Assembly (NCBI GenBank): GCA_024275315.1
Contig: JAJRZK010000011.1
Coordinates: forward strand, 1-46,429
Direction: 5' to 3'
Length of the DNA stretch: 46,429 nucleotides
Source: Nitrospirota bacterium
Lineage (GTDB): Bacteria > Nitrospinota_A > UBA7883
The notes under the pieces are model-generated. The model was not told the DNA's origin. It saw only the letters and a list, made by a program, of their open reading frames with translations, and searched no databases. Below are positions 14,510 to 30,992 of the stretch, one piece after another. The stretch's first letter is position 1. The number at the start of each line of letters is the position of its first letter. A program made the position numbers and the translations under genes.

Positions 14510-15589
<1,080 letters not shown>

Positions 15590-15895: not shown

Positions 15896-17866
15896 ATGAA
15901 GCTTCTTTTCAGCTCGTGGCTTGGGGATGTGGTGGACAACAGGGGGAAATCTCCCACCGATTGCGCCAACGTGAAAAATATCCCGCTTGATTTCGGCGAT
16001 AGCGGTGTCGTAAGCGCATTTATAGGGTGGAACGGAATAATCATCGTCTCGCAACCCTACGATATCGTGGAGATGACCTACCAATACGCCAAGGCTCTCC
16101 AGGACAGCTCCTGCGCAAAATGTTTCCCATGCCGTACGGGTACCAAGGTCATGGAAGACCTGTTGCTTGACATACTCGAGGGAAAAGGTGACTCAGGGAG
16201 CCTGGATCAACTGGAGCGGCTTTGCGATTCCATCTCCAACAACTCCAAATGCGGCATCGGACAGCTCGGCCCGACAGGCATCGAACACTCGCTACGTTAT
16301 TTCAAGGAAGACTACCAGGCGTACCTTTCCGGAGCGAAAAAGCGAAGTGGTTTTAAATACCCGTACAAGATGACGGCGCCGTGCACGGTCGCCTGCCCTA
16401 CAGGGATGGATATTCCCCTGTACATAGAGCACATAAAGGACGGGAATTTCGCCGGTTCCCTGCAGACCATTCGCGAGGCAAGCCTCATGGCCAGCTCCCT
16501 GGGACGGGCGTGTTTCCATCCTTGCGAGAACAACTGCCGCCGCGCGAACGTCGACGATCCCATCGCCATCTGCAAGCTGAAGAGATTCGCATGGGACTAC
16601 GAGGACCAGCACGCCGTTGACAAACCGGAGCCGCCCGAAAAACATAAACACAAGGAAAAAGTCGCGGTTATCGGAGCGGGCCCCGCCGGACTCGTATGCG
16701 CCTATTATCTGACCCTGCAAGGCTACCCCGTGACCATATTCGAAAAGTTGCCTTTCGGCGGTGGGGCCATCAGGACCGGCATTCCGCAGTACCGCGTGCC
16801 AGACCCTGCGCTGGACAGGGAAATCGGGTATCTGCAGGAGCTGGGTGTGGAAATCAGATACGGCGTACATTTCGGAAAAGACGAGACGTTCCAGAGTCTC
16901 AGGGGAAAAGGGTACAAAGCCTTTTTTCTGGGGACAGGCGCCGATATTTCGAAGCCGATGCGTGTGGAAGGGGAGAAGGAAGGATACAGCGGTTTCTACA
17001 GCGGGATCGATATACTGATGCAGGTGCAGATGAAAACGTGCCCGGTGCCTCGCGGCGAACGGGCGCTCGTGGTCGGCGGCGGAAACACGGCCATGGATTG
17101 CGCCCGAAGCTTTATCCGGATGGGCGCGCGCGTCACCGTTGTTTACCGCCGGACAGAGAAAGAACTGCCCGCCGACCCGCATGAGTATCACGATTCGCTG
17201 GACGAAGGGGTCGAGTACATGTTCCTGGAGGCCCCAAAACGTATCATCGCGGAAAACGGAAAGGTCGTAGGTCTGGAGAGCCAAAAAATGAAGCTCGGTG
17301 AGCCGGACGAGTCGGGCCGCCGCAGACCTGTGCCGATAGAAGGGTCCGAGCACGTCATCCCTGCTGATTATATCATTTCCGCCATCGGGCAGGACTGCGA
17401 TATTTTCTATCTCAAGGATGAGCCAGGCGTGGGAATCAGCAAGTGGGACAATCCTCTGGTTGACGAGGATACGCTCCAGGCCGATGTCAAGGACGTGTTC
17501 GCCGGAGGGGATTGTGTTACCGGCCCTCTTACACTGGTGGACGCTTCCGGCCAGGGGAAACGGGCCGCGCAGAGTATCGGCCAATATTTGCGAGGCGAGC
17601 CGGTGCGCATCAGCGACGAGCAAAGAATGGAAAAAATCATCGCCGCCATCGGGGCCTATGACAAGGACGAGCAGATACCCAACCCGAAAGGGTGGAAACG
17701 GCAACCCATGCCCATATGCGACCGGGAATTGAAGCTGAACTCGTTCGAGGAAGTGGAACTTGGCTACACACAGCCCCAGGCCATGGAAGAAGCGGCCAGG
17801 TGCATGAGGTGTTACATAGTGGGGCTCGCTTGCGTGGTTCCTTCCGACGGGAGAGCGGACAAATGA
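15896..17866 (+). CDS. SfrB-like flavoprotein: NuoF C-terminal FeS domain fused to GltD-type NAD(P)H oxidoreductase
   Basis: A 656-residue fusion heading the nuo operon. Residues about 50-145 are the NuoF C-terminal iron-sulfur domain: SCAKCFPCRTGTKVMEDLL with CxxCxxC and a fourth Cys in NNSKCGIGQLG. Residues about 160-230 are the GltD-type double 4Fe-4S region (CTVACPTGMDIPLYI, ACFHPCENNCRRANV). Then come an FAD Rossmann motif, VAVIGAGPAGLVCAYYL, and a second dinucleotide motif, VVGGGNTAMDCARSF. VVYRR follows it, where the arginines fit NADPH. The FMN/NADH-binding N-terminal half of NuoF (GRGGAGFPTG motif) is absent, and there is no nuoE. This layout is that of Geobacter SfrB. It probably supplies electrons from NAD(P)H to NuoG; direction and donor are inferred. 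Confidence 0.85.
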   Translation: MKLLFSSWLGDVVDNRGKSPTDCANVKNIPLDFGDSGVVSAFIGWNGIIIVSQPYDIVEMTYQYAKALQDSSCAKCFPCRTGTKVMEDLLLDILEGKGDSGSLDQLERLCDSISNNSKCGIGQLGPTGIEHSLRYFKEDYQAYLSGAKKRSGFKYPYKMTAPCTVACPTGMDIPLYIEHIKDGNFAGSLQTIREASLMASSLGRACFHPCENNCRRANVDDPIAICKLKRFAWDYEDQHAVDKPEPPEKHKHKEKVAVIGAGPAGLVCAYYLTLQGYPVTIFEKLPFGGGAIRTGIPQYRVPDPALDREIGYLQELGVEIRYGVHFGKDETFQSLRGKGYKAFFLGTGADISKPMRVEGEKEGYSGFYSGIDILMQVQMKTCPVPRGERALVVGGGNTAMDCARSFIRMGARVTVVYRRTEKELPADPHEYHDSLDEGVEYMFLEAPKRIIAENGKVVGLESQKMKLGEPDESGRRRPVPIEGSEHVIPADYIISAIGQDCDIFYLKDEPGVGISKWDNPLVDEDTLQADVKDVFAGGDCVTGPLTLVDASGQGKRAAQSIGQYLRGEPVRISDEQRMEKIIAAIGAYDKDEQIPNPKGWKRQPMPICDRELKLNSFEEVELGYTQPQAMEEAARCMRCYIVGLACVVPSDGRADK

Positions 17867-20451
17867 ACGAGACATCCACCGCGAAAACCGTCTCGCTTAC
17901 CATAGACGGTCAAACCGTCCGCGTCCCCGAAGGGGACACCATCTTAGCGGCCGCCAGGCGAAATGGCGTCGATATCCCTACGTTGTGCTTTCTGGAGAAA
18001 CTCAAACCCATAGGCTCGTGCAGGATTTGCTCCGTGGAGGTGGATGGATCGGCCAGCCCCATCATGTCCTGTGTTACGCCGGTGGTGGAGGGGATGAAAG
18101 TGGTCACCAGTAGCGAGCGGCTTTCCCGTTACCGCCAGGAGATGATGCGGTTTATTCTGACGAACCATCCGCTGGACTGTCCCGTGTGCGAGCGCTCCGG
18201 AGAATGCCTGTTGCAAAACCGCACGTTCGAGCTGAACGTGACCGAACACCCTTTCAAGACCATCGATTACAAAAAAACGGCGGTGGATGACTGGAACGAG
18301 TTGCGGTACAACCGGAACCTGTGTATTTTTTGCGAGCGTTGCGTGAAGGTGTGCTGGGAAATACAAGGATTCGGAGCCCTGGAGATTGGCGGAAACGGGT
18401 ATAACGCCAGGATAATCCCCACTACGGGCGAAACGCTCGATTGCGATTTCTGCGGCCAGTGTCTCGCCGTGTGTCCCGTGGGCGCCATTTCCAGCGCCAT
18501 CGTTTTTTCCGCCCGGTCGTGGGAGATCGAGAAGGTGGAAACGATTTGCCCTTTCTGCGCCGTTGGTTGCTCTATAGAAGTGAACGTCAAAGATGGCGCG
18601 CTGGTGAGGAACACTTCCAACGACGGGATAGGAGTCAACAACGGCAACCTGTGCGCCAGGGGAAGGTTCGGCCATGAGAGCGTCCAGTCCGATGACAGAT
18701 TCAAGACCCCCATGGTCCGTAAAGGGGTGAAGCTGGTCGAGACGGGATGGGACGAGGCCATAGGAAATGTCGCGGAAAAGATATCCGAGGCTGTGAAAAA
18801 TGACGGGCCCGATTCTGTCGGGGTGATAGTCTCCGAAACCGTCACCAACGAAGACGCCTACCTGATACAGAAAATTTTCAGAGCCGGCCTGAAATCGAAC
18901 AGGATAGAGACACTTTCGAACATGCTTAATCCGAAGCTGAACTCCGGTATTTTTGACGAGCTGGGCCCATCCGCGCCTATCGTGCCATATGACCAGATCG
19001 GAAAAGCGGGATCGTTTGTTTTCTTCGGGTGCGACGCGGAGAAGGAAAATCCGGTGATAGCGAACATGGTTCGCGTGGCGATGAGAGACAAGGGCACACC
19101 CCTGTTTGTCGCAAACGCCCGCAATCCCCTTTTCACGCCAAGCGCGAGGCAACGTGTTCGATATGAATATGGAACAGAGACGCAACTGGTGGCGGCGCTT
19201 ATAGGCGCGCTCAACGAAAGCGGACTTCCCGATAATAGCCGGGCTGATGATCCGTCGGCTTTTATTAAAACCGCGGAGTCGGTCGGCGTTTCAGAGGCGC
19301 TGAAAAGCGCCGGGGTGTCCGAGGAGGCTGTAAGGCGGATGGCCGAGGGGATCAAAACCGCCGGGTCCCCGTTGATTTTTCTCGGGAAGGAAATCCACGA
19401 TCATCCGAAATCGGCGCAAATAACCCGCGCGCTGTCGAACCTGGCCAATCTTACGGGCGGCCGTTTGCTGTTATACCGGGAATACTGCAACAGCCAGGGC
19501 GCCAACGATATGGGTGTCGGGCGGTCTCATTTCCCCGGCTATCTCAGAACAGACAGCGATCAAGCCGCTGGTTATTATTCCGCCAAATGGGGCGTTGAAA
19601 TCCCCGTTTTTTCGGGCCCGGCTCCAGACACGCTCGCAGAACTCGTTGCGGGAAAAATCAAGGTTCTCATAGTGGTGGGGTGTGATCCGATCACCCACTA
19701 TAATGACGGTCAGTTTGTCAGGGAAGCTATTCAGTCCGCCGGTTTTGTCGTAGTCACCGGTTCTTATGACAATGAAACGGGTGTGCTGGCCGATGTCGCC
19801 CTGCCCACCACAGTCGCCGCCGAGCGTGACGGATCTTATACCAACAACGAGGGCCGGGTCCAGCTGATCCGAAAAGCGGTGGAGCCTGCGGGCCAGTCGA
19901 GGCCCGAGTGGGAGATTTTCCAGAATTTGGCCGGTCGGCTGGGTATGGATATCTCATATGAAACATGCGAACAGATAGCCGGGGAGATAGCGGAATTTGT
20001 GCCGGGCTACCATGGGTTGACACACAATCGCATCGCACAGGGAGGGGCGCTTGTAGACTATCCGGGCAAAAGCTCCGATGTGGAGGGGTACGAGTTCGAC
20101 ACGGTAACGGTCTCTTCCGACGGTGCAGGGTTTCCCTTTGTTGCGGTAATCGGCAATTCACTGTTCCATCTCGGTGTCGCCAGCCGTCACAGCAAAGCGT
20201 TGAACCGTATGGCGCCCGGACCCTGCCTGGAAATCAGTCCCGACGACGCCGCCGCGGCTGGCGTGACCGATGGAGACGATGCGATTGTGGAATCTGTGCA
20301 GGGAAGCATAAAAGCGAAAGTCGTGGTGACAGAGCGGTCTTCCAACGGTGTTGTGTTCATCACGAAAAATTTCGAGAACGCCCCCGCGACCCACCTGATT
20401 TATCGCAAAAGCCCTGTAACCAGGGTAAAAGTATCCCGGGCGGGCGGATAA
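17863..20451 (+). CDS. nuoG: NuoG/SfrA-like iron-sulfur molybdopterin-fold subunit
   Basis: An 862-residue subunit starting at ATG 17863, which overlaps the preceding stop (ATGA). Domains are an N-terminal 2Fe-2S ferredoxin (DIPTLCFLEKLKPIGSCRIC), the His-Cys3 cluster site NHPLDCPVCERSGECLLQN, two 4Fe-4S sites (CIFCERCVKVC and CDFCGQCLAVCPVGA), then a molybdopterin-type domain with its own cluster (CPFCAVGC ... NLCARGRFG) running to the C-terminal VVVTERSSNGVVFITKNFEN. The position where formate dehydrogenases carry Cys or Sec has no Cys here (SNMLNPKLNSGIF), so the Mo site is probably inactive, as in complex I. It passes electrons from the flavoprotein toward NuoB. Confidence 0.88.
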   Translation: MNETSTAKTVSLTIDGQTVRVPEGDTILAAARRNGVDIPTLCFLEKLKPIGSCRICSVEVDGSASPIMSCVTPVVEGMKVVTSSERLSRYRQEMMRFILTNHPLDCPVCERSGECLLQNRTFELNVTEHPFKTIDYKKTAVDDWNELRYNRNLCIFCERCVKVCWEIQGFGALEIGGNGYNARIIPTTGETLDCDFCGQCLAVCPVGAISSAIVFSARSWEIEKVETICPFCAVGCSIEVNVKDGALVRNTSNDGIGVNNGNLCARGRFGHESVQSDDRFKTPMVRKGVKLVETGWDEAIGNVAEKISEAVKNDGPDSVGVIVSETVTNEDAYLIQKIFRAGLKSNRIETLSNMLNPKLNSGIFDELGPSAPIVPYDQIGKAGSFVFFGCDAEKENPVIANMVRVAMRDKGTPLFVANARNPLFTPSARQRVRYEYGTETQLVAALIGALNESGLPDNSRADDPSAFIKTAESVGVSEALKSAGVSEEAVRRMAEGIKTAGSPLIFLGKEIHDHPKSAQITRALSNLANLTGGRLLLYREYCNSQGANDMGVGRSHFPGYLRTDSDQAAGYYSAKWGVEIPVFSGPAPDTLAELVAGKIKVLIVVGCDPITHYNDGQFVREAIQSAGFVVVTGSYDNETGVLADVALPTTVAAERDGSYTNNEGRVQLIRKAVEPAGQSRPEWEIFQNLAGRLGMDISYETCEQIAGEIAEFVPGYHGLTHNRIAQGGALVDYPGKSSDVEGYEFDTVTVSSDGAGFPFVAVIGNSLFHLGVASRHSKALNRMAPGPCLEISPDDAAAAGVTDGDDAIVESVQGSIKAKVVVTERSSNGVVFITKNFENAPATHLIYRKSPVTRVKVSRAGG

Positions 20452-20455
20452 CACC

Positions 20456-20611
20456 ATGGCTACAAAACAGGGAACCGGCATGGACACTGTGGTGTCCGGT
20501 CTGCAAGACGGGTCGAAGAATTCGGGGTATCGGGGAATGGGATTGACTTTGTCGGTTCAGATGATAGACTTGGCCCGCCTTAGGGTTGCAGTAGCGGGGA
20601 TTTTCAATTGA
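20456..20611 (+). CDS. Small ORF (51 aa) filling the nuoG-nuoA gap
   Basis: ATG 20456 lies 4 bases after the nuoG stop, and its TGA (20609-20611) overlaps the TTG start of nuoA by two bases. It therefore fits the spacing of its tightly packed neighbours. The product begins MATKQGTGMDTVVSGL and ends LARLRVAVAGIFN; it is glycine-rich at first with a weakly hydrophobic tail and no cysteine. I recognise no family. The ribosome site is weak (GGCGGAT), so it may be coupled to nuoG. It could be a real small complex I protein, a decayed gene remnant, or chance. Confidence 0.4.
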   Translation: MATKQGTGMDTVVSGLQDGSKNSGYRGMGLTLSVQMIDLARLRVAVAGIFN

Positions 20612-20961
20612 ATCAGTATATTCCAGTTCTTATCATGTTCGCCGTAGCCGTCGGGATCGCGGGGACCATGATCGGGTTGTCGGAGTTTCTGGGACCCCGT
20701 CACGTGTTCCGTGAAAAAATGGAGCCTTTCGAATGCGGTGAAAATCCTATCGTTTCACCCAAGCAGAGGTTTTCGGTCCGGTTTTATCTTGTGGCGATGC
20801 TGTTTATAGTATTCGACATCGAGGCCGTGTTTCTTTTCCCATGGGCGGTGATATTCCAGTCCCTGGGGTTGTTCGGGTTTGTGGAGATGATGATATTTAT
20901 CCTGCTGTTGGCCGCAGGTCTTGTATATGTCTGGAAAAAAGGAGCTCTGGAATGGGAGTAA
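20608..20961 (+). CDS. nuoA: NADH-quinone oxidoreductase subunit A
   Basis: A 117-residue membrane subunit with three helices. Family signatures are the loop EPFECGENPI near residue 40 and FDIEAVFLFPWA on helix 2, both of which contact the quinone channel. The start is TTG 20608, overlapping the small ORF stop; no ATG fits. Its end overlaps the nuoB start by 10 bases. Confidence 0.93.
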   Translation: MNQYIPVLIMFAVAVGIAGTMIGLSEFLGPRHVFREKMEPFECGENPIVSPKQRFSVRFYLVAMLFIVFDIEAVFLFPWAVIFQSLGLFGFVEMMIFILLLAAGLVYVWKKGALEWE

Positions 20962-21497
20962 AAGGCGAAGACGCGGAAGCCACGGCCGCCCTGTCGGACA
21001 GCGTGATAATAACCCAGCTTGACAAGATCGTCTCGTGGGGGCGCAAATACAGCTTTTTTCTTTATCCGTTTATTACCGCGTGTTGCGGGATGGAGTTTAT
21101 GAGCGTGGCCGGTCCCCGGTATGATATCGACCGGTTCGGCGCCGCGTTGCCCAGGTTTTCGCCACGTCAGGCGGACCTTATGATGGTAGTCGGGACCATA
21201 AGCCATAAACAGGCCCCCATCCTGGTGAAAGTGTATAACCAGATGACAGAACCCAAATGGGTCTACGCTTATGGAGCCTGCACGGTGTCTGGCGGTATGT
21301 ACGACAATTACGCGACCGTGCAGGGGATAGACACCCTGATACCGGTGGACATTTATGTCCCGGGCTGTCCGCCACGCCCGGAAATGGTGCTGGATGGGCT
21401 GATAAAGCTACAGGAAAAAGTCGTGCGTGAGCGCCACGTAAAGGAAACAAAAGGCGTCTCGCCGGTGGGTGAGGCCGACGACCGGATTGTCACCTGA
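20952..21497 (+). CDS. nuoB: NADH-quinone oxidoreductase subunit B
   Basis: A 181-residue subunit that carries the terminal cluster N2, the direct donor to quinone. Ligand motifs are TACCGMEFM (two adjacent cysteines), GACTVSGGMYDNY and VPGCPPRPE. ATG 20952 is taken because the frame upstream is only a nuoA shadow. It has the usual length and sits in tight order with nuoA and nuoC. Confidence 0.97.
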   Translation: MGVKGEDAEATAALSDSVIITQLDKIVSWGRKYSFFLYPFITACCGMEFMSVAGPRYDIDRFGAALPRFSPRQADLMMVVGTISHKQAPILVKVYNQMTEPKWVYAYGACTVSGGMYDNYATVQGIDTLIPVDIYVPGCPPRPEMVLDGLIKLQEKVVRERHVKETKGVSPVGEADDRIVT

Positions 21498-21528: not shown

Positions 21529-22092
21529 ATGAGCGACGATACGAAAATTCCCGATATGGCCGCTGGCGCCTCTGCGCAGGTGTCGGCCGTTCTGGGCAGG
21601 ATCAAGGGGAAATTCGGCAATTCCGGGATCATTATACATACCCACAGCATGCACGGCGACGACACGGTGGTTGTCCAGGCGGAGGACATTCTCGAGATCA
21701 TGGAGTTTTTGCGCAACGACGACGAGCTGATGTTCGATATGATGATGGACCTTACTGTTGTGGACTATCTGGGGAACCAGGGCATATGGAGCTACCTGAA
21801 GGGATTAAAAGCCCGGTTCGAGGTTGTGTATCATCTTTACTCCATCGAAAAAAACCACCGGGTCCGCATAAAGGTCCCCATTTCCGAGGACAACTGTTTT
21901 ATAAACTCGGTCACGAGAATATGGGCCGGGGCCAACTGGTTCGAGAGGGAGGCGTGGGATCTTTACGGGATAATCTTCCGTGGTCATCCAGACCTGAGGC
22001 GCATACTGCTTTATGAAGATTTCAAGGGGCATCCTTTACGAAAGGATTTCAGCAAAACAGACAGACAACCCTTAATTGGACCGAAAAACTAG
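21529..22092 (+). CDS. nuoC: NADH-quinone oxidoreductase subunit C
   Basis: A 187-residue peripheral-arm subunit. The 30-kDa-subunit signature is clear: NWFEREAWDLYGIIFRGHPD then LRRILLYEDFKGHPLRKDF. It is not fused to NuoD, in contrast to E. coli. It has a slightly long polar N-terminus (about 25 residues). Its end lies 13 bases before the nuoD start chosen here. Confidence 0.95.
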   Translation: MSDDTKIPDMAAGASAQVSAVLGRIKGKFGNSGIIIHTHSMHGDDTVVVQAEDILEIMEFLRNDDELMFDMMMDLTVVDYLGNQGIWSYLKGLKARFEVVYHLYSIEKNHRVRIKVPISEDNCFINSVTRIWAGANWFEREAWDLYGIIFRGHPDLRRILLYEDFKGHPLRKDFSKTDRQPLIGPKN

Positions 22093-22105: not shown

Positions 22106-23314
22106 ATGACCGACTCTTCCAGAGACTACGATTTTTATGTGGAAAGCCACACGGAACCGATGGTCATCAACATGGGGCCATCCCATCCGGCGACCCACGG
22201 CACAGTCAAGTTCCTTCTTGGCCTGGACGGTGAGACGATCAAGGATATCGACGTGGAGATCGGCTATCTTCACCGTGGATTCGAGAAGGAATGCGAGGCC
22301 CAGTTGTGGAACGGAGTTTTTCCCTATACCGACCGGCTCGATTACACCGCCAGCGCTCTTAACAATATCGGGTACGCCCTGGCGGTGGAGAAGCTGATCG
22401 GTATCGAGGTCCCCGAAAGATGCAAATATATAAGGGTGATCATCGGTGAGCTGGCCAGGATGAGCGGCCACTACACCAACCTTGGCGCAAGCGCGCTGGA
22501 GCTTGGCGCACTGACGGCGTTCATATATTTCGTGGAAGCCCGCGAGTTGGTCTGGGACATCATTGAATCTGTTTGCGGAGCGCGGTTGACCCACAACTAT
22601 GTGCGTATTGGCGGCGTCATCAGCGACTTGCCGGACGGTTTTCGCGAGAATGTGACGAGCGTGTTCCGCACAAACAGGGGGCTTTGGGCCGATTTCAACA
22701 AGCTGCTGACGAAAAACCGGATTTTCCTGGACCGGATGCGCGACACCGGCGCGATATCCAGTGACGACGCAATTGAATGGGGTTTTACCGGTCCGTGTCT
22801 GCGCGCGTGCGGCGTCGGCTATGATGTTCGCAAGGCCAATCCCTATCTGATCTATGACCAGCTCGATTTTGAGATACCGGTGGGCGAGACAGGTGACAAT
22901 TTCGACAGATACCTTGTCCGCATGGAAGAGCTCAACCAGTCCATGAGGATTGTAGAGCAATGTCTAGAAAGGATACCCGGCGGACCGATAAACGTGGACA
23001 ATCCCCAGTGGAGACAGCCTTCCAAAGATGACATTTTCACTGAGATGGAGTCGATGATCTTTCATTTCAAAAACGCCATAGAGGGAGTGAAAGTTCCCGC
23101 GGGCGAAGCGTACCAGGCTGTGGAGGGCGCCAACGGCGAGGTCGGGTTCTACCTGGTTTCCAACGGAGGCGGCAAGCCGGTCAAATGCCGTGTCCGGCCT
23201 CCATGCTTTCCGATGACGTCCGCGTTGCCCCTGATAATAAAAGGGAGCCTGCTGGCGGACCTGATTCCCACTTTCGACATGATCAACCTTATCGGCGGGG
23301 AGTGCGACAGGTAA
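22106..23314 (+). CDS. nuoD: NADH-quinone oxidoreductase subunit D
   Basis: A 402-residue 49-kDa-type subunit that forms the quinone pocket with NuoB. Markers are MGPSHPATHGTVKFLLGLDG, IGYLHRGFEKECE, PYTDRLDYTAS, ELARMSGHYTNLG and CRVRPPCFPM. The C-terminal end reads INLIGGECDR, where most relatives have xxGEVDR. ATG 22106 is chosen because AGGGA lies just upstream; a TTG at 22076 inside nuoC is possible but adds only ten residues. Confidence 0.96.
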   Translation: MTDSSRDYDFYVESHTEPMVINMGPSHPATHGTVKFLLGLDGETIKDIDVEIGYLHRGFEKECEAQLWNGVFPYTDRLDYTASALNNIGYALAVEKLIGIEVPERCKYIRVIIGELARMSGHYTNLGASALELGALTAFIYFVEARELVWDIIESVCGARLTHNYVRIGGVISDLPDGFRENVTSVFRTNRGLWADFNKLLTKNRIFLDRMRDTGAISSDDAIEWGFTGPCLRACGVGYDVRKANPYLIYDQLDFEIPVGETGDNFDRYLVRMEELNQSMRIVEQCLERIPGGPINVDNPQWRQPSKDDIFTEMESMIFHFKNAIEGVKVPAGEAYQAVEGANGEVGFYLVSNGGGKPVKCRVRPPCFPMTSALPLIIKGSLLADLIPTFDMINLIGGECDR

Positions 23315-23316
23315 TC

Positions 23317-24408
23317 ATGGGCATCGCCGAGATGATAGAAACAATCGTCAAGATCGGGTTTATCATTGGGCTTACCATCGGTTTTTTCGCGCCGATGCTT
23401 GCCTGGGTGGAGCGAAAACAGTCGGCGGTAATGCAGGACAGGATAGGAGCCAACCGGGCCGATTTTTTCGGTTTCACCGTTATCGGGCTGCTCCACTCCC
23501 TGGCGGACGCCATCAAGCTTATTTTCAAGGAGGACTTTATCCCCAGGGGAGCCGAAAGAGCTCTGCACACCCTCGCGCCGGTGATAGCCGTGATACCGTC
23601 CCTGATCGCCTTCGCCGTGATACCTTTTGGCGGTAAATACACGTTGTGGGGGCACGAGGTCAACCTGGTGATAGCCGATCTCGACGTGGGGGTTCTGTAC
23701 GTTTTCGCCATCTCTTCCCTGGCCACTTACGGAGTGGTTATCGCGGGCTGGGCCTCCAATAACAACTGGTCACTGCTCGGCGGGCTCAGGGCCTCGGCGC
23801 AGATGTTTTCATATGAAGTCGCGATGGGCCTTACGGTTATCGGGCTGATCATGTTCTACCAAAGCCTGAGCATGGTGGATATCGTCGCCAAGCAGGACAA
23901 CTTTTTCCACTGGGGCATCATCTGGCACTGGCCCGCGTTTGTCCTGTTCCTGGCCTGCGCCGTGGCGGAAAACAAAAGGGTGCCTTTTGACGCGCCGGAG
24001 GCGGAGGCGGAGCTGGTGGCGGGGTATTTCACCGAATATTCCGGTATGAAGTTCGTGATGTTCTGGACGGCGGAGTTTATAGAGATGGTGACCATCGCCG
24101 GGCTTTGCGTGGCGCTGTTTTTTGGAGGTCATCATGTTCCCTTTATCACCGATGCGGAACTGGCGGGCGGGTTTTCCTTTCTTGGCCCGAACGTTTCAAA
24201 CCTTGTGGCGATGCTGATCGGTGTGGGAGTGTTCATATTCAAGCTGGTGGCGTTGCTGATATTGCAGATGACGATACGCTGGACCATGCCCAGGTTCCGG
24301 TATGACCAGATTATGAAACTTGGCTGGAAGATGATTTTGCCCCTGTCGCTCACCTGGATTTTCATCGTGGGCGTGGGTATTCTTACCGGCGTGATGCCGA
24401 GCCCCTAG
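23317..24408 (+). CDS. nuoH: NADH-quinone oxidoreductase subunit H
   Basis: A 363-residue membrane subunit with about eight helices linking the peripheral arm to the proton pumps. Signatures are LAWVERKQSAVMQDRIGANR, HSLADAIKLIFKED and AENKRVPFDAPEAEAELVAG followed by YFTEYSGMKF. The ATG at 23317 lies 2 bases after the nuoD stop. Confidence 0.96.
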   Translation: MGIAEMIETIVKIGFIIGLTIGFFAPMLAWVERKQSAVMQDRIGANRADFFGFTVIGLLHSLADAIKLIFKEDFIPRGAERALHTLAPVIAVIPSLIAFAVIPFGGKYTLWGHEVNLVIADLDVGVLYVFAISSLATYGVVIAGWASNNNWSLLGGLRASAQMFSYEVAMGLTVIGLIMFYQSLSMVDIVAKQDNFFHWGIIWHWPAFVLFLACAVAENKRVPFDAPEAEAELVAGYFTEYSGMKFVMFWTAEFIEMVTIAGLCVALFFGGHHVPFITDAELAGGFSFLGPNVSNLVAMLIGVGVFIFKLVALLILQMTIRWTMPRFRYDQIMKLGWKMILPLSLTWIFIVGVGILTGVMPSP

Positions 24409-24424: not shown

Positions 24425-25018
24425 ATGGCCATAACAGTGAAAAAAGTTGATCGAAACGTGACCATGACATTGTGGGAACGGTCGTATATTCCGGAGATGA
24501 CCCGGGGGATGATCATCACAATGAAACACTTCGTGGTGAACCTGGCCGGCCTCGCCCTGGAGGTTGTCGGGGGTAAACGTCACAGAAAGATAATGACCAT
24601 TTACTATCCGGAGGAAAACCCGGTCATTCCCCCGGCGTATCGGGGCAGGCCGGCGCTGGTGCGGGCGGAGAACGGCCAGGAAAAATGCGTGGCCTGCGGT
24701 CTTTGCGAGGTGGCGTGTCCCCCCCGTTGCATCAGTATCGTCGGGGGCGAGCGCGAAAACGGCGAGCGGTATCCGGTAAGTTATACGCTCGACGGGTCCC
24801 GTTGCATATTCTGCGGCCTTTGCGAGGAGGCGTGCCCCAAGGAGGCGATCGTGATGAGCCACGATTGGAAAAACCTTTGCGAGCACGACAGGTCGAAAAT
24901 GATATACGACAAGGAGACGCTTCTGTATCCGGAACGCAACCTGAAGAAGCGCCTGAACGTCATAAGGGAAAAATATTTTAACGCGAAGCTGTACCACAAA
25001 CCATCGGAGAAAGACTGA
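24425..25018 (+). CDS. nuoI: NADH-quinone oxidoreductase subunit I
   Basis: A 197-residue ferredoxin-like subunit that holds clusters N6a and N6b. Two CxxCxxCxxxCP motifs are visible: CVACGLCEVACPP and CIFCGLCEEACPK, preceded by the membrane-contact N-terminus and followed by a polar C-terminal tail (YHKPSEKD). GGAAGG lies upstream of ATG 24425. Confidence 0.96.
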   Translation: MAITVKKVDRNVTMTLWERSYIPEMTRGMIITMKHFVVNLAGLALEVVGGKRHRKIMTIYYPEENPVIPPAYRGRPALVRAENGQEKCVACGLCEVACPPRCISIVGGERENGERYPVSYTLDGSRCIFCGLCEEACPKEAIVMSHDWKNLCEHDRSKMIYDKETLLYPERNLKKRLNVIREKYFNAKLYHKPSEKD

Positions 25019-25033
25019 GAAGGCGGATAGAGC

Positions 25034-25537
25034 ATGGAGCTGATTATTTTTTACCTGGTTTCGTCTATGGCGGTGGTATGCGCCGTGGGGATGATCGTGG
25101 CGCAGAAACCTGTCACGTCCGCCGTCTGCCTGGTGGCCGTGATGTTCTGCCTGGCGGTGCTGTTCGCGTTGCTCAACGCCCATCTTATAGCGGCCTTGCA
25201 GATACTGGTGTACGCCGGCGCGATCATGGTCCTGTTCCTGTTCGTGATCATGCTGATGAACCTGCGGGAAAAAGAGGGGCTTGTGTCGGCTCATTTGGAA
25301 AAGGTCCAGATGGTGGGTGTCCTGGCGCTTGGCGCTCCCCTTTTGTGGGTGATGTCGACGGCGAAAGTGTTTGTCGGGGCAGGGGGGGATGTAAAGGATC
25401 TGGCGGAATTCGGCACTACCAGGGGGGTCGGAGCGCTGCTGTACACAGAATATCTGCTCCCGTTCGAGATAGCGTCGATACTTCTTCTGGCGGCGCTGGT
25501 GGGGGCGGTTGTCCTTACGAAAATAAAGCTCAGATAG
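25034..25537 (+). CDS. nuoJ: NADH-quinone oxidoreductase subunit J
   Basis: A 167-residue five-helix membrane subunit. The conserved helix 3 motif is ALQILVYAGAIMVLFLFVIM, which contains the pi-bulge helix used in coupling. Length and topology are normal for the family. Confidence 0.95.
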   Translation: MELIIFYLVSSMAVVCAVGMIVAQKPVTSAVCLVAVMFCLAVLFALLNAHLIAALQILVYAGAIMVLFLFVIMLMNLREKEGLVSAHLEKVQMVGVLALGAPLLWVMSTAKVFVGAGGDVKDLAEFGTTRGVGALLYTEYLLPFEIASILLLAALVGAVVLTKIKLR

Positions 25538-25574
25538 TTTTTGTATAACAGGATGAAACGGAAATAATTAAGCG

Positions 25575-25877
25575 ATGTTGACGGTTAATCACTTTCTCAG
25601 TCTGGCGGCGGTTCTTTTCGCCATTGGCGTGGTGGGCGTTATAACACGCCGGAATATCATCGTCGTCATGATGTCGATAGAGCTGATGCTGAACTCGGTG
25701 AACCTGACGTTCATCGCTTTTTCCTATTATATGAACGATATGGCCGGACACATTTTTGTTTTCATGGTGATGGCGGTGGCCGCGGCGGAGGCCGCGGTTG
25801 GGCTGGCGATAGCCTTGGCGCTGTTTAGAAACCGTGAAACCGTGGACGTGGACCGGGTGAACCTGCTCAAGGGCTGA
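25575..25877 (+). CDS. nuoK: NADH-quinone oxidoreductase subunit K
   Basis: A 100-residue three-helix membrane subunit. The helix 2 motif [20 protein letters not shown] holds the conserved proton-path glutamate, and helix 3 carries a second ([16 protein letters not shown]). Usual length; 37 bases separate it from nuoJ. Confidence 0.96.
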
Positions 25878-25940
25878 TGGGTGCAATCAGGATGATCGAC
25901 AGGAACGGCGACAACGAAACATATGAAATGGAGCGCGGGC

Positions 25941-27890
25941 ATGTGGGGTCTTGATCACATATGGTGGGTTCCTATCCTGCCGCTTTTGGGGGCCATCATA
26001 AACGGTGTCCTGGGCTTTAGGATACCCAGGCCCTGGGTGACCTTTTTTGCCATAGGGTCCACTGGGCTCTCTTTCGCCATCGCGCTGGTTGCGTTTGTCA
26101 ATCTTGTAACGCTCGACCCGGCGTTGAGAGTATACGAAAATGTCCTTTTCGTCTGGATACAATCCGGCTCGTTCACCGCCGAGGCGGGCATCCAGATCGA
26201 TCCGCTGTCCGGCATATTTCTGCTGATAGTCACCGGAGTCGGTTTTCTCATCCATGTCTACTCCATCGGGTACATGGGTCATGAACACGCCTATCCCAGG
26301 TATTTCGCGTATCTCAACCTTTTCATGTTCTCGATGTTATTGCTGGTGCTGGGCAACAACTTCCTGCTGATGTTCATCGGCTGGGAGGGGGTTGGCTTAT
26401 GCTCGTATCTGCTGATCGGGTATTACTATGAAAAGGACTCCGCCGCCGACGCCGGCAAAAAGGCGTTCGTGGTCAACAGGATAGGCGATTTCGGATTCAT
26501 CCTGGCGATCATGTGGATATTTTGGGTGTTCGGATCGATAGATTACACCACGGTGTTTCCCGCCGCACACGAGACGTTGGCCCCCGGTGGCGTCGTGGTT
26601 GTCGGGATAACGCTTCTTCTGTTCCTTGGCGCAACAGGAAAATCGGCGCAGATTCCGCTTTACACATGGCTACCCGACGCCATGGAGGGCCCTACCCCGG
26701 TCTCCGCTCTCATACACGCGGCGACCATGGTGACCGCTGGTGTGTACATGGTCGCCCGATGCAACGCCCTTTTCAACCTGGCCCCGGCCAGCATGGTTGT
26801 CGTGGCGCTCATTGGCGGCGCCACCGCCCTGTTCGCGGCGACCATGGGGTTATACCAGAACGATATAAAAAGAGTGCTGGCGTATTCCACAGTTTCACAG
26901 CTGGGTTACATGTTCCTGGCCTGCGGTGTCGGGGCGTATACCGCCGCCGTGTTCCATGTGATGACCCACGCCTTTTTCAAGGCGTGCCTGTTTCTGGGTT
27001 CCGGCTCTGTGATTCACGGCATGTCCGGCGAGCAGGATATGCGCCAGATGGGCGGGCTGAAAAGCAAGATGCCCCGAACCCACATTACATTTCTGATTTC
27101 GACGCTTGCGATTTGCGGTATCCCAGTTTTTTCGGGGTTTTTCTCGAAAGACGAGATTCTGCTGTCTGCGTTCATCGGGCACACTCCGGGCCATATCGTG
27201 TATTGGGGGCTGGCGACCATCGCGGCCGCCGTCACGGCTTTTTACATGTTCAGGCTCTACTACATGACCTTCACCGGAGACCTTCGATCGCAGGATCATC
27301 ATGTGCGTGAACACGTGCATGAATCTCCACCGGTGATGACGGTTCCGCTTATCATACTCGCCGGGCTGGCCACTGTCGGAGGTTTTCTCGGGTTGCCGGC
27401 GTTTATAGGACCCCACGCGTTAAACGAGTTTCTCCATCCCGTATTCGCCACCCACGGGGCTAATGAGCATCCCCACATATCATTGGGGCTGGAACTTGGG
27501 TTGATGGCGTTTTCCGTGGCTGTGGCTGTGGCGGGGATATACACCGCGCGGCTGTTTTACCATGTCCGCCCGGAAGCGGCCGAAGAACTGGCCAAACGGG
27601 AAGGTTTTATCAAGACTGTTTACACCACCATACAGAACAAGTACTACGTCGACGAGATATACGATTATCTGGTGGTAAAACCGATAATCAAAATATCCGA
27701 CTCTTTCCTGTGGAAGTTTTTCGACGTGAGGATAATAGATGGCTCCGTCAACGGCATAGCCGCTTTTTTCGGGGAAATGAGCTCTTTTCTGCGCAGGACC
27801 CAGACCGGGATGGTGCGCAACTATGCGCTGATCATGGTGATCGGATGTGTATTTATCGCCGGATTCTGGGTGATTGCTTCGGGGAATTGA
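25941..27890 (+). CDS. nuoL: NADH-quinone oxidoreductase subunit L
   Basis: A 649-residue antiporter-like proton-pumping subunit with the long lateral C-terminal helix. Key motifs are FIGWEGVGLCSYLLIGYYY with the pumping Glu, GATGKSAQIPLYTWLPDAME with the channel Lys, and STVSQLGYMFLACGVGAYT. ATG 25941 is favoured by GGAG with 7-base spacing; ATG 25923 would add six residues and has no clear ribosome site. Confidence 0.95.
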   Translation: MWGLDHIWWVPILPLLGAIINGVLGFRIPRPWVTFFAIGSTGLSFAIALVAFVNLVTLDPALRVYENVLFVWIQSGSFTAEAGIQIDPLSGIFLLIVTGVGFLIHVYSIGYMGHEHAYPRYFAYLNLFMFSMLLLVLGNNFLLMFIGWEGVGLCSYLLIGYYYEKDSAADAGKKAFVVNRIGDFGFILAIMWIFWVFGSIDYTTVFPAAHETLAPGGVVVVGITLLLFLGATGKSAQIPLYTWLPDAMEGPTPVSALIHAATMVTAGVYMVARCNALFNLAPASMVVVALIGGATALFAATMGLYQNDIKRVLAYSTVSQLGYMFLACGVGAYTAAVFHVMTHAFFKACLFLGSGSVIHGMSGEQDMRQMGGLKSKMPRTHITFLISTLAICGIPVFSGFFSKDEILLSAFIGHTPGHIVYWGLATIAAAVTAFYMFRLYYMTFTGDLRSQDHHVREHVHESPPVMTVPLIILAGLATVGGFLGLPAFIGPHALNEFLHPVFATHGANEHPHISLGLELGLMAFSVAVAVAGIYTARLFYHVRPEAAEELAKREGFIKTVYTTIQNKYYVDEIYDYLVVKPIIKISDSFLWKFFDVRIIDGSVNGIAAFFGEMSSFLRRTQTGMVRNYALIMVIGCVFIAGFWVIASGN

Positions 27891-27897
27891 CACGACT

Positions 27898-29541
27898 ATG
27901 GAATCAGCGCCGATACTTTCGATTATAACTTTCATTCCGCTTGCCGGGATGATCCTTCTGCTTTTTATCGACAAGCGGAACAAGGGCCTTATAAGGGGCG
28001 TAACTCTCACCACTGCGTTGATCGATTTTCTTGTGTCGGTTCCCCTGTTCTTTTTCTTCAAGCCGACCCACGAGATGCAGTTTGTCGAAAAGGTCTCGTG
28101 GATCCCCGATTTCGGAATCTACTACAGCATGGGGATAGACGGGATTTCGCTCTACCTGGTTTTGCTGACCACCCTGACCACCGCCATCTGCGTGGCGAGC
28201 ACGTGGAGGGCGATAGACAAGCATGTCAAGGAGTTCATGATCTCCATACTTCTGCTGGAAGTGGGGATGATCGGCGTGTTCTGCGCCATGGACTTTTTCC
28301 TGTTCTACATATTCTGGGAGCTGATGCTCATCCCTATGTACTTCATGATAGGCGTGTGGGGCGGTCCGAGACGCATCTACGCGGCGGTCAAATTCTTTTT
28401 GTACACGATGTTCGGCTCGGTGCTGATGCTGGTGGCCATTTTGTGGCTCTATTTCCACAACTACCAGCAGACCGGGCAATACGACATGAGCATCCTCACA
28501 TATCATTGGACGTACATAGACCCGGGAGCCCAGACGTGGCTGTTCCTGGCGTTTTTCCTGGCGTTCGCCATCAAGGTGCCGATGTTCCCGTTCCACACAT
28601 GGTTGCCCGACGCCCATGTGGAAGCGCCCACCGCAGGTTCCGTCATCCTGGCTGGCATCCTGCTGAAGATGGGGACATACGGTTTCCTGCGTTTTTCCCT
28701 GCCGATATTTCCGCAGGCCACGGAAGCGGCGATGGGCTGGATCAGCGCGCTCGCTATCGTGGGAATAATTTACGGAGCCCTTGTGGCCATGGTGCAGCCG
28801 GACATAAAAAAACTGGTGGCCTATTCCTCCGTGAGCCATCTCGGGTTTGTGACGCTGGGCATTTTCGCGCTGAACACCCAGGCGCTGGAGGGAAGTATTC
28901 TGCAGATGATCAACCACGGAATATCGACCGGCGCGCTGTTTCTTATCGTGGGTGTTCTATACGAAAGGAGGCACTCCCGCCTAATAGCGGATTATGGCGG
29001 GATATCGGCCAGGATGCCCGTTTTCGCCGTCGTGTTCATGATAGTTACGCTCTCCTCGATCGGGCTGCCGGGCCTGAACGGGTTTGTGGGTGAGTTCCTG
29101 ATCCTCGTGGGTGTCTGGAAATCAAACCCGATCATGGCCGCGCTGGCGACCACCGGCGTCGTGTGGGCGGCGGTTTATATGCTGTGGATGTTCCAGCGTG
29201 TGATGTTCGGCAAGATTACGAACCCGAAAAATGAAAAACTCACCGATCTGAACCTGCGGGAAATAGCGTATTTCGCTCCGCTGATTCTATTTATATTTAT
29301 ACTGGGCGTGTTCCCGACTCCATTTATAAAGAAAATGGAGCCGACGGTGGAGCACCTGGTTCAAAAATCCAACTTCGCCCTGGCTCGCACGGTGGAACCC
29401 GGCGACGCGGCTGGTATGTTGAGTAGACCACCATCCGGGTCGGCGGCGACAGATTTACAAAAGACAGTTGCCCCCAGTGATGTTACATCCAGCGCTTTGG
29501 GGTATGTCGATTCGGCCGACGGCGGAAAGGAGCGGAGCTGA
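27898..29541 (+). CDS. nuoM: NADH-quinone oxidoreductase subunit M
   Basis: A 547-residue pump subunit with about 14 helices. Motifs are YIFWELMLIPMYFMIGVWGG (Glu), FAIKVPMFPFHTWLPDAHVE (Lys) and AYSSVSHLGFVTLGIFALN. The last 50 or so residues form an unusual polar tail (DAAGMLSRPPSGSAATDLQ and beyond). The start is ATG 27898; a TTG at 27874 inside nuoL is an alternative. Its TGA overlaps the nuoN ATG by one base. Confidence 0.95.
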   Translation: MESAPILSIITFIPLAGMILLLFIDKRNKGLIRGVTLTTALIDFLVSVPLFFFFKPTHEMQFVEKVSWIPDFGIYYSMGIDGISLYLVLLTTLTTAICVASTWRAIDKHVKEFMISILLLEVGMIGVFCAMDFFLFYIFWELMLIPMYFMIGVWGGPRRIYAAVKFFLYTMFGSVLMLVAILWLYFHNYQQTGQYDMSILTYHWTYIDPGAQTWLFLAFFLAFAIKVPMFPFHTWLPDAHVEAPTAGSVILAGILLKMGTYGFLRFSLPIFPQATEAAMGWISALAIVGIIYGALVAMVQPDIKKLVAYSSVSHLGFVTLGIFALNTQALEGSILQMINHGISTGALFLIVGVLYERRHSRLIADYGGISARMPVFAVVFMIVTLSSIGLPGLNGFVGEFLILVGVWKSNPIMAALATTGVVWAAVYMLWMFQRVMFGKITNPKNEKLTDLNLREIAYFAPLILFIFILGVFPTPFIKKMEPTVEHLVQKSNFALARTVEPGDAAGMLSRPPSGSAATDLQKTVAPSDVTSSALGYVDSADGGKERS

Positions 29542-30992
29542 TGCCGATATCAATACCGGACATTAACATCGGATCCATCGGCCCGGAGCTTATCCTGGCG
29601 ATAGTGGCGATTGTGGTTCTGCTTGTGGAGGTCTTCTCCGTGAGCAAGGGAAAAGACCATCTCGCCTACATCTCCCTGGGTGGCGTTCTCCTGGCGGCCG
29701 CTGTCACCTCGAGGATGATCGGCGAGCCGTCCACTACTTTTTCCGGCATGTACGTTGTCGACAATTTTTCGACATTTTTCAAGCTAATCTGCCTGCTGGG
29801 GACAGGGATGACCATACTGGTGTCGGTCAAGTACAACAAGGATGAGGATATAGACAACGGGGAATATTACGCACTGCTCCTGTTCGCCACGTTCGGCATG
29901 TTCTTTATGATATCAGGCTCCGACATGATGACTATCTTCATGGGCCTGGAGGTGATGTCGCTGTCCCTGTACGTTCTGGCCGGGTACACCCGAAAACGGT
30001 TCAAATCCAACGAGGCGTCGATGAAATATTTCATCCTCGGGTCGGTCGCGTCGGCGTTTTTGCTGTACGGCATGGCCCTGATATATGGCGCCACCGGTTC
30101 GACTAATCTCGGCGTGATAGGCTCCGCCATCTCCGGCGGGTCAGCCTCGGCGTCCCTGCTGGCGATGGGGTCGGCGATGCTGATCATCGGGTTTGGGTTC
30201 AAGGTGGCCGCCGTTCCGTTCCACATGTGGACACCGGACGTATACCAGGGCGCCCCGGTTCCGGTTACGGCGTTCATGTCCGCCGGGCCAAAAGCGGCCG
30301 CTTTCGCGGCGTTTTATCGTGTGTTCAGCCAATCCCTGCATGGCACGCAACCGGAATGGTGGATCATCATCTGGGTGCTGGCTGTGCTGACCATGACCCT
30401 CGGCAACATAGTCGCCCTGTTGCAAAGCGATGTCAAGCGGATGCTCGCCTATTCTTCGATAGCCCACGCCGGCTATATACTCGTCGGGTTCGTGGCGGGA
30501 GGCAAGCTCGGTTCGTCTGCGATCCTGTTTTACCTGCTGGCCTACACCTTCATGAACATCGGCGCTTTCGCCATCGTCACCCTGGTGGCCCGCCAGGGCG
30601 AAACAAAAACAAGCTTCTCCGACTATGTGGGTATCGGTTACAAATATCCCCTTATGGGTGTGACCCTGGTGATCTTCCTTTTCGCGTTGGCGGGGATTCC
30701 TCCCACGGCTGGTTTTGTCGGAAAATTCTACATTTTCATGGCGGCGCTGGACCAGGGTTATGTCTATCTCGCCATAATATCCGTTCTCAATTCCGTTGTT
30801 TCGGTCTTCTATTATCTGCGCCTTACCGTAATGATGTACATGAAAGACGAAAGCGGAGAAGAACTGCCCCCGATTAAATTCGCCGCATCTGTGGTCGTGG
30901 CGCTGGCCATCGCCATATATGGAACCTTGTGGCTGGGAATTGTGCCGGCTGGATATATGGCTTTCGCACAATCCTCTTTTCTGCCGTATTAA
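29541..30992 (+). CDS. nuoN: NADH-quinone oxidoreductase subunit N
   Basis: A 483-residue pump subunit, last of the operon. Motifs are FMGLEVMSLSLYVLAGYTRK with the pumping Glu, GFGFKVAAVPFHMWTPDVYQ with the channel Lys, and LAYSSIAHAGYILVGFVAGG. Full family length. No terminator is obvious after the stop. Confidence 0.95.
   Translation: MPISIPDINIGSIGPELILAIVAIVVLLVEVFSVSKGKDHLAYISLGGVLLAAAVTSRMIGEPSTTFSGMYVVDNFSTFFKLICLLGTGMTILVSVKYNKDEDIDNGEYYALLLFATFGMFFMISGSDMMTIFMGLEVMSLSLYVLAGYTRKRFKSNEASMKYFILGSVASAFLLYGMALIYGATGSTNLGVIGSAISGGSASASLLAMGSAMLIIGFGFKVAAVPFHMWTPDVYQGAPVPVTAFMSAGPKAAAFAAFYRVFSQSLHGTQPEWWIIIWVLAVLTMTLGNIVALLQSDVKRMLAYSSIAHAGYILVGFVAGGKLGSSAILFYLLAYTFMNIGAFAIVTLVARQGETKTSFSDYVGIGYKYPLMGVTLVIFLFALAGIPPTAGFVGKFYIFMAALDQGYVYLAIISVLNSVVSVFYYLRLTVMMYMKDESGEELPPIKFAASVVVALAIAIYGTLWLGIVPAGYMAFAQSSFLPY

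Follow-up and report, generated by a model that had tools for sequence, protein, structure and literature searches.

By its textbook definition, complex I oxidizes NADH at the NuoF subunit. The nuo operon carried by a stretch of 46,429 nucleotides from a Nitrospirota bacterium (the whole of which is referred to here as the window) begins with a gene that keeps the C-terminal domain of NuoF and joins it to a domain of another redox family, and raises the question of which donor feeds this complex and through which subunit. The answer developed here, to which we assign a probability of about 0.75, is that the operon would encode a proton-pumping complex I of 13 subunits, with one SfrB-like subunit that replaces both NuoE and NuoF and takes electrons from NADPH. 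The parts of such an assembly, namely complex I, SfrAB and StnC, are already known, and the open literature searched describes SfrAB, Stn, NuoX/NuoY and the 11-subunit complex I. Neither SfrB in the place of NuoEF within complex I nor the exchange of a NuoG cassette was found described in that literature, and an earlier description is possible.

Domain structure of the fusion protein

The sfrB-like gene (656 aa) occupies positions 15896-17866 of the plus strand, where a previous sequence-only reading had placed it, and its domains are recognized by Pfam and NCBIfam. The N3-cluster domain of NuoF (residues 60-142, 16073-16321, plus strand; PF10589 NADH_4Fe-4S, 1e-21), with Cys73, Cys76, Cys79 and Cys119, is followed by an N-terminal two-[4Fe-4S] domain of the GltD/NfnB type (residues 160-239, 16373-16612, plus strand; PF14691 Fer4_20, 2e-21) and then by a FAD domain and an NADPH-type Rossmann domain (residues 255-554, 16658-17593, plus strand; PF07992 Pyr_redox_2, 1.6e-30) with the motifs GAGPAG, GGGNTAMD and VYRRT. 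In the same searches no Complex1_51K FMN domain (PF01512) was found in the fusion or in the nuo operon, which bears out the earlier description of a NuoF cluster domain fused to a GltD-type protein and devoid of the FMN half. Alignment to 8oh5_C and 5jca_L assigns Cys163, 167, 206, 210 and 214, together with Lys229, to the two-[4Fe-4S] domain. A C-terminal EAARCMRCY motif with a CxxC pair (17789-17821, plus strand) was detected by phmmer, with fusion residues 602-639 and 604-641 matching residues 5-42 and 10-47 of the solved chains 4ylf_B and 5jca_L. By this match, the cluster ligands are circularly displaced, the CxxC pair being N-terminal in NfnL/GltD and C-terminal in the fusion.

The single-chain AF2 model of the fusion is confident (pLDDT 90.3, pTM 0.90), and its Foldseek matches, 9bov_A, 8oh5_C, 9n5u_A and 5jca_L, identify NfnABC/StnABC and NfnL as the nearest solved folds. 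The FAD/NADPH domain aligns end to end with StnC (8oh5) and NfnL (5jca), including GGGNTAMD and YRRT, so that the NADPH-type motifs named in the earlier reading hold up in alignment. StnC has a non-bifurcating FAD, with a lysine (K170) in place of the NfnB glutamate at the proximal cluster (PMC10482914). By alignment K170 corresponds to Lys229 of the fusion, which is present in 16/16 sequences of its own phylum; the StnC-type features of NADPH input, that is, the lysine ligand and, judging from the cysteine pattern, two [4Fe-4S] clusters beside the FAD, are thus found together. All four cysteines of the N3 quartet are kept in these 16/16 sequences and in 12/12 other nuo-linked homologues, and glycine takes the place of the third (Cys79) in all 24 Campylobacterota and 7 Geobacter-like SfrB sequences.

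The StnABC/NfnABC enzymes (8oh5, 9bov, 9n5u) share with the window a GltD domain that passes electrons from NADPH and FAD to a NuoG chain via two [4Fe-4S] clusters, as well as the lysine ligand and the non-bifurcating FAD (PMC10482914). In Stn, however, the NuoG-like chain contains the GltD domain as a fused internal part, and the electrons proceed to a NuoF-type FMN bifurcation site, whereas the window joins this domain to the N3 domain, with neither an FMN site nor NuoE. The NfnAB transhydrogenase resembles the fusion in its NfnB/NfnL fold and in having sites for FAD and NADPH, but differs in its glutamate cluster ligand, its NfnS partner and its bifurcation, the window fusion having Lys229 and no partner in the operon.

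NuoG and the nuo operon

The nuoG gene (862 aa; TIGR01973, 3e-119) lies at 17863-20451 on the plus strand, also as previously given. It starts at the ATG at 17863, not at an upstream GTG, and overlaps the sfrB stop codon by 4 bp as ATGA, through which the two genes are probably translationally coupled. As claimed before, NuoG has its full clusters, with all ligands of N1b, N5 (His102 and three cysteines), N4 and N7. An additional CxxCxxCxxxC set, which would form a second ferredoxin-like cluster, is, like these ligands, fully or almost fully conserved in 10 relatives. Alignment at the catalytic position revealed no formate dehydrogenase active-site Cys/Sec (Cys/Sec-His) in the window NuoG. An N-terminal domain of about residues 1-225 (17863-18537, plus strand) is set apart by regional identities, trees and an approximately unbiased (AU) test.

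The fusion gene, preceded by obg (14516-15589, plus strand), is the first of the operon and is followed, all on the plus strand, by nuoG, nuoA (20608-20961; PF00507, 4.9e-38), nuoB with its N2 cluster ligands (20952-21497; PF01058, 2.3e-25), nuoC (21529-22092; PF00329, 2.7e-47), nuoD, encoding the 49-kDa subunit (22106-23314; PF00346, 9e-104), nuoH (23302-24408; PF00146, 5.4e-106), nuoI with two 4Fe-4S motifs (24425-25018; PF00037, 3e-12, in two stretches) and nuoJ, nuoK, nuoL, nuoM and nuoN (25034-30992), the last five recognized as open reading frames and by tblastn to the conserved operons of relatives. Promoter and terminator scans gave nothing above shuffles, and no Rfam element was found. 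The features of complex I (NDH-1) are therefore present, with nuoA, B, C, D, H, I and J-N in one operon, all subunits of the membrane arm and Q module, and a NuoG with N1b, N4, N5 and N7. The pair that marks the canonical 14-subunit NADH type, NuoE and an FMN/NADH-binding NuoF, is absent from the operon; SfrB stands in for NuoE and for the FMN half of NuoF, and NuoG has the additional [4Fe-4S] ligand set.

Electron-input genes elsewhere in the genome

A separate nuoE/nuoF pair serving this complex was looked for across the entire genome (2.9 Mb, 100% complete), where the Complex1_51K domain turned up only in an operon encoding NuoE, NuoF and FdhA (C43; L003, 8100-12376) and in a PduS/RnfC-like protein (C26), and the NuoE-type 2Fe-2S thioredoxin-like domain only in the former. 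The sole nuoE-nuoF pair of the genome thus belongs to a formate dehydrogenase operon and, since its neighbour is a 900-aa FdhA with a catalytic Cys350, is most simply understood as the diaphorase of that enzyme. The complex I-type 49-kDa NuoD is found only in the window, so the genome has no second complex I. The genome encodes an NfnSL pair, whose NfnL carries Glu (GNLERF) at the cluster-ligand position; neither Rnf/Nqr nor PntB was found in it. The C26 gene (L002/L175) follows an aldehyde dehydrogenase frame, an arrangement typical of a bacterial microcompartment operon. Elsewhere (L174, 1391-8589), a cluster of dsrA, dsrB, a gene for a DsrL-like NAD(P)H oxidoreductase and dsrK points to an organism with dissimilatory sulfur metabolism.

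Distribution of the SfrB-containing operon

Among 24 genomes sampled from the same phylum, the fusion lies 5' of nuo in 17 (16 at full length and one cut by a contig end), and the complete operon is visible in 12 of these carriers, some contigs stopping before nuoA. An assembly artefact or a chance arrangement is excluded by conservation in 17 genomes. Five of the remaining genomes have NuoF instead; in another (G014) no nuo operon was seen and only a hydrogenase-type NuoD relative was present; and in the last (G023, L169) a divergent SfrB-like frame adjoins nuoA with no nuoG between them. This frame contains three in-frame TGA codons, which may be frameshifts or recoding.

The interval between nuoD and nuoG or nuoH is the normal position of nuoEF. 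In other phyla, the fusion is found in precisely this interval in Syntrophales, in other deltaproteobacterial MAGs and in many Campylobacterota, including Sulfurimonas, Sulfurovum, Sulfuricurvum, Nitratifractor and Arcobacteraceae, so that, judged from gene content and order, SfrB-containing complex I appears to be a recurring type in several phyla. In a review of Campylobacterota, the input of complex I is described as either NuoX/NuoY or the canonical NuoEF (PMC6682613). Complexes with NuoX/NuoY (flavodoxin/ferredoxin input) resemble the window in that nuoEF is replaced by another module (PMC6682613); NuoX/Y differ from SfrB, and many of the free-living Campylobacterota in our sample have SfrB together with two NuoG genes. 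For instance, two distinct NuoG genes come after SfrB at L074, L076, L079, L080, L086, L093 and other loci, and the second NuoG of such carriers forms its own clade in the tree.

Geobacter SfrAB had been named as an example of related parts, and the comparison stands as far as the two-protein plan is concerned: in the NADPH dehydrogenase of Geobacter sulfurreducens, SfrB likewise combines a NuoF C-domain with an NADPH/FAD domain, SfrA is NuoG-like, and the SfrB and NuoG N-domain of the window group near those of Geobacter-like SfrAB in trees. The plan is nevertheless not confined to Geobacter, being found in several phyla. Moreover, Geobacter-like SfrAB stands alone and has an altered N3 motif (Cys79 replaced by Gly, with an additional Cys), whereas in the window the N3 quartet is the canonical one and the gene is part of a complete nuo operon. 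The fusion thus sits next to a NuoG-like protein as in SfrAB, but is nuo-linked in 17/24 genomes instead of standing alone.

Several variants were observed alongside these loci. Four loci of one sub-group in the same class (L035, L037, L038, L039) have two divergent NuoL-like genes between nuoK and nuoM, with 27-30% identity to the window NuoL, a hint of an additional pumping subunit. At L044 and L045, frames of 1013-1042 aa join a full NuoF, FMN half included, to the same NADPH/FAD domain; they adjoin NuoE-like and NuoG/HydA-like genes and are possible intermediates of the SfrB fusion. In the order nuoD-sfrB-fdhA-nuoH, seen at L054 (9992-14810), L055, L061 and L069, a formate dehydrogenase alpha subunit (899 bits to TIGR01591 at L054) replaces nuoG. 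Its catalytic position is encoded by an in-frame TGA (ARL-U-HSS), and operons of this type suggest a complex I with formate and NADPH as its electron sources. A similar fdhA lies 5' of nuoA at L082.

Exchange of SfrB and NuoF and the mosaic structure of NuoG

Full-length NuoF occupies the same slot, directly 5' of nuoG, in two genomes of the window's own family (G001, G004) and in three more of its order (G007, G009, G010). The NuoF at L156, for example, has 616 aa with an FMN domain (6e-43), an N3 domain and a C-terminal ferredoxin domain; L156-L160 all carry a sister-type NuoF whose C-terminal ferredoxin domain would hold two clusters, and NuoE is encoded at a separate site in the same genomes.

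NuoG itself is chimeric with respect to this exchange. Over its N-terminal ~215 residues, the window protein is 29-43% identical to NuoF-type relatives and 50-66% identical to SfrB-type proteins from a different family of the class; over residues 281-862 the corresponding values are 38-54% and 26-34%, and the identity changes sharply near residues 225-250. In the N-domain tree the sequences split by partner, SfrB or NuoF (100/100), and in the C-domain tree they split by taxonomy, the order against the class (100/100). The clade uniting G000, G003, G004 and G001 is supported at 93/93 by the C-domain data and rejected by the N-domain data (dlnL 238, p-AU 9.5e-39). The number of swaps is uncertain, because a single clade of NuoF rows is not rejected by the C-domain data (p-AU 0.11). 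In a broader tree, window-type NuoG N-domains are placed together with the N-domains of Campylobacterota and of Geobacter-like SfrA, and the SfrB proteins group in the same way. From a concatenated membrane-arm tree, only the broad split was used, since the search behind it was quick, some rows were gappy and G011 was oddly placed with G002.

In these comparisons, the NuoG N-domain (about residues 1-225) follows its partner, SfrB or NuoF, and the remainder of the protein broadly follows taxonomy; SfrB and the NuoG N-domain therefore seem to behave as an exchangeable electron-input cassette. The joint change of a subunit and of the domain expected to touch it is what a physical partnership would predict. 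The N-domain difference could instead reflect divergence after a change of partner, without recombination; the abruptness of the change near residue 225-250 speaks against this, and the N-domain branch between the two types is long. A wider proposal, which we regard as an even bet, is that input cassettes recombine with a break inside nuoG, SfrB plus its NuoG N-domain (NADPH) alternating with NuoF plus its own (NADH), and that in other SfrB lineages NuoG has given way to a selenocysteine formate dehydrogenase, with complex I running on formate and/or NADPH.

Proposed mechanism and alternative explanations

In the proposed complex, NADPH would reduce the FAD of the NfnB/GltD-type domain, from which electrons would pass one at a time to the two [4Fe-4S] clusters of SfrB, one of them completed by the C-terminal CxxC, and then through the retained N3 cluster to the NuoG N-domain (N1b, N4/N5). 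They would continue from NuoG via NuoI (N6a/b) and NuoB (N2) to quinone, whose reduction would drive the antiporter-like, proton-pumping membrane subunits. The replacement of NuoE/NuoF by an SfrB-like module, proposed earlier from the letters of this one operon, finds support in domains and synteny and also beyond synteny, because NuoF and SfrB have been swapped naturally within the same order and the NuoG N-domain with them. From the motifs we infer that the module is specific for NADPH, and SfrB is likewise predicted to bind NuoG and to pass electrons along the route just described. Among the points against this reading are the SfrB-like frame that adjoins nuoA without nuoG in G023 and the existence of stand-alone SfrAB, from which it follows that SfrB-NuoG pairs can be soluble enzymes.

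The direction of electron flow would be reversible in principle, complex I being generally reversible, with forward oxidation most likely and reverse NADP+ reduction possible. That the complex works mainly in reverse, quinol and the proton motive force reducing NADP+ for biosynthesis, is a tentative reading and the less likely one. It is favoured by the lack of PntB and Rnf/Nqr among the genes found, by dsrAB, dsrK and the DsrL-like oxidoreductase, with which sulfur oxidation or disproportionation is possible, and by the chemolithoautotrophic genera among the Campylobacterota carriers; yet the NfnSL transhydrogenase is able to make NADPH, and the Dsr pathway may run in either direction. Oxidation of NADH instead of NADPH by the same module is improbable: although nucleotide preference varies among GltD-like folds, the module has its GGGNxAxD...YRR(T/S) motif in common with the NADPH-binding StnC and NfnL, and published descriptions of Geobacter SfrB link it to NADPH (PMC7483475, PMC13186404). 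It is somewhat harder still to credit that SfrB and NuoG make up a soluble NADPH dehydrogenase of the SfrAB type, linked only genetically to a membrane arm that runs on ferredoxin, as 11-subunit complexes do. Stand-alone SfrAB-like pairs do occur (L051, L062, L064, L065, L073), but the operon has no other nuoG, the C-domain of this one is that of its taxon's complex I NuoG and is common to NuoF-using relatives, and the slot is shared with NuoF and its linkage kept in 17/24 genomes.

Flavin bifurcation-like chemistry, raised as a possibility in the sequence-only reading, would have the SfrB FAD split the electrons of NADPH between quinone and another acceptor. SfrB does share its fold with the bifurcating NfnB and has the conserved arginine (R300), but StnC has the same arginine and does not bifurcate (PMC10482914); with the StnC-like ligand Lys229, where NfnB and the genome's own NfnL have Glu, with the FMN half of NuoF lost and with no NfnS-like second flavin partner in the operon, bifurcation is very unlikely and was set aside. 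Least credible of all is that the C43 NuoE-NuoF, sole pair of its kind in the genome though it is, docks on the window complex to supply NADH while SfrB is an accessory, since the pair sits in the FdhA operon and SfrB already fills the N3 and NuoG N-domain sites.

Implications

If the preferred reading of an NADPH-fed complex I is true, a proton pump can change its fuel by the exchange of one subunit and one domain, and NADPH would be linked directly to respiration in anaerobes that lack transhydrogenase and Rnf. Closely related natural pairs, an NADH type and an NADPH type within one family, would be well suited to tests of the energetics and of the NuoF-NuoG interface. For annotation, metabolic models in which NADH is the donor of all nuo operons would misrepresent the SfrB lineages.
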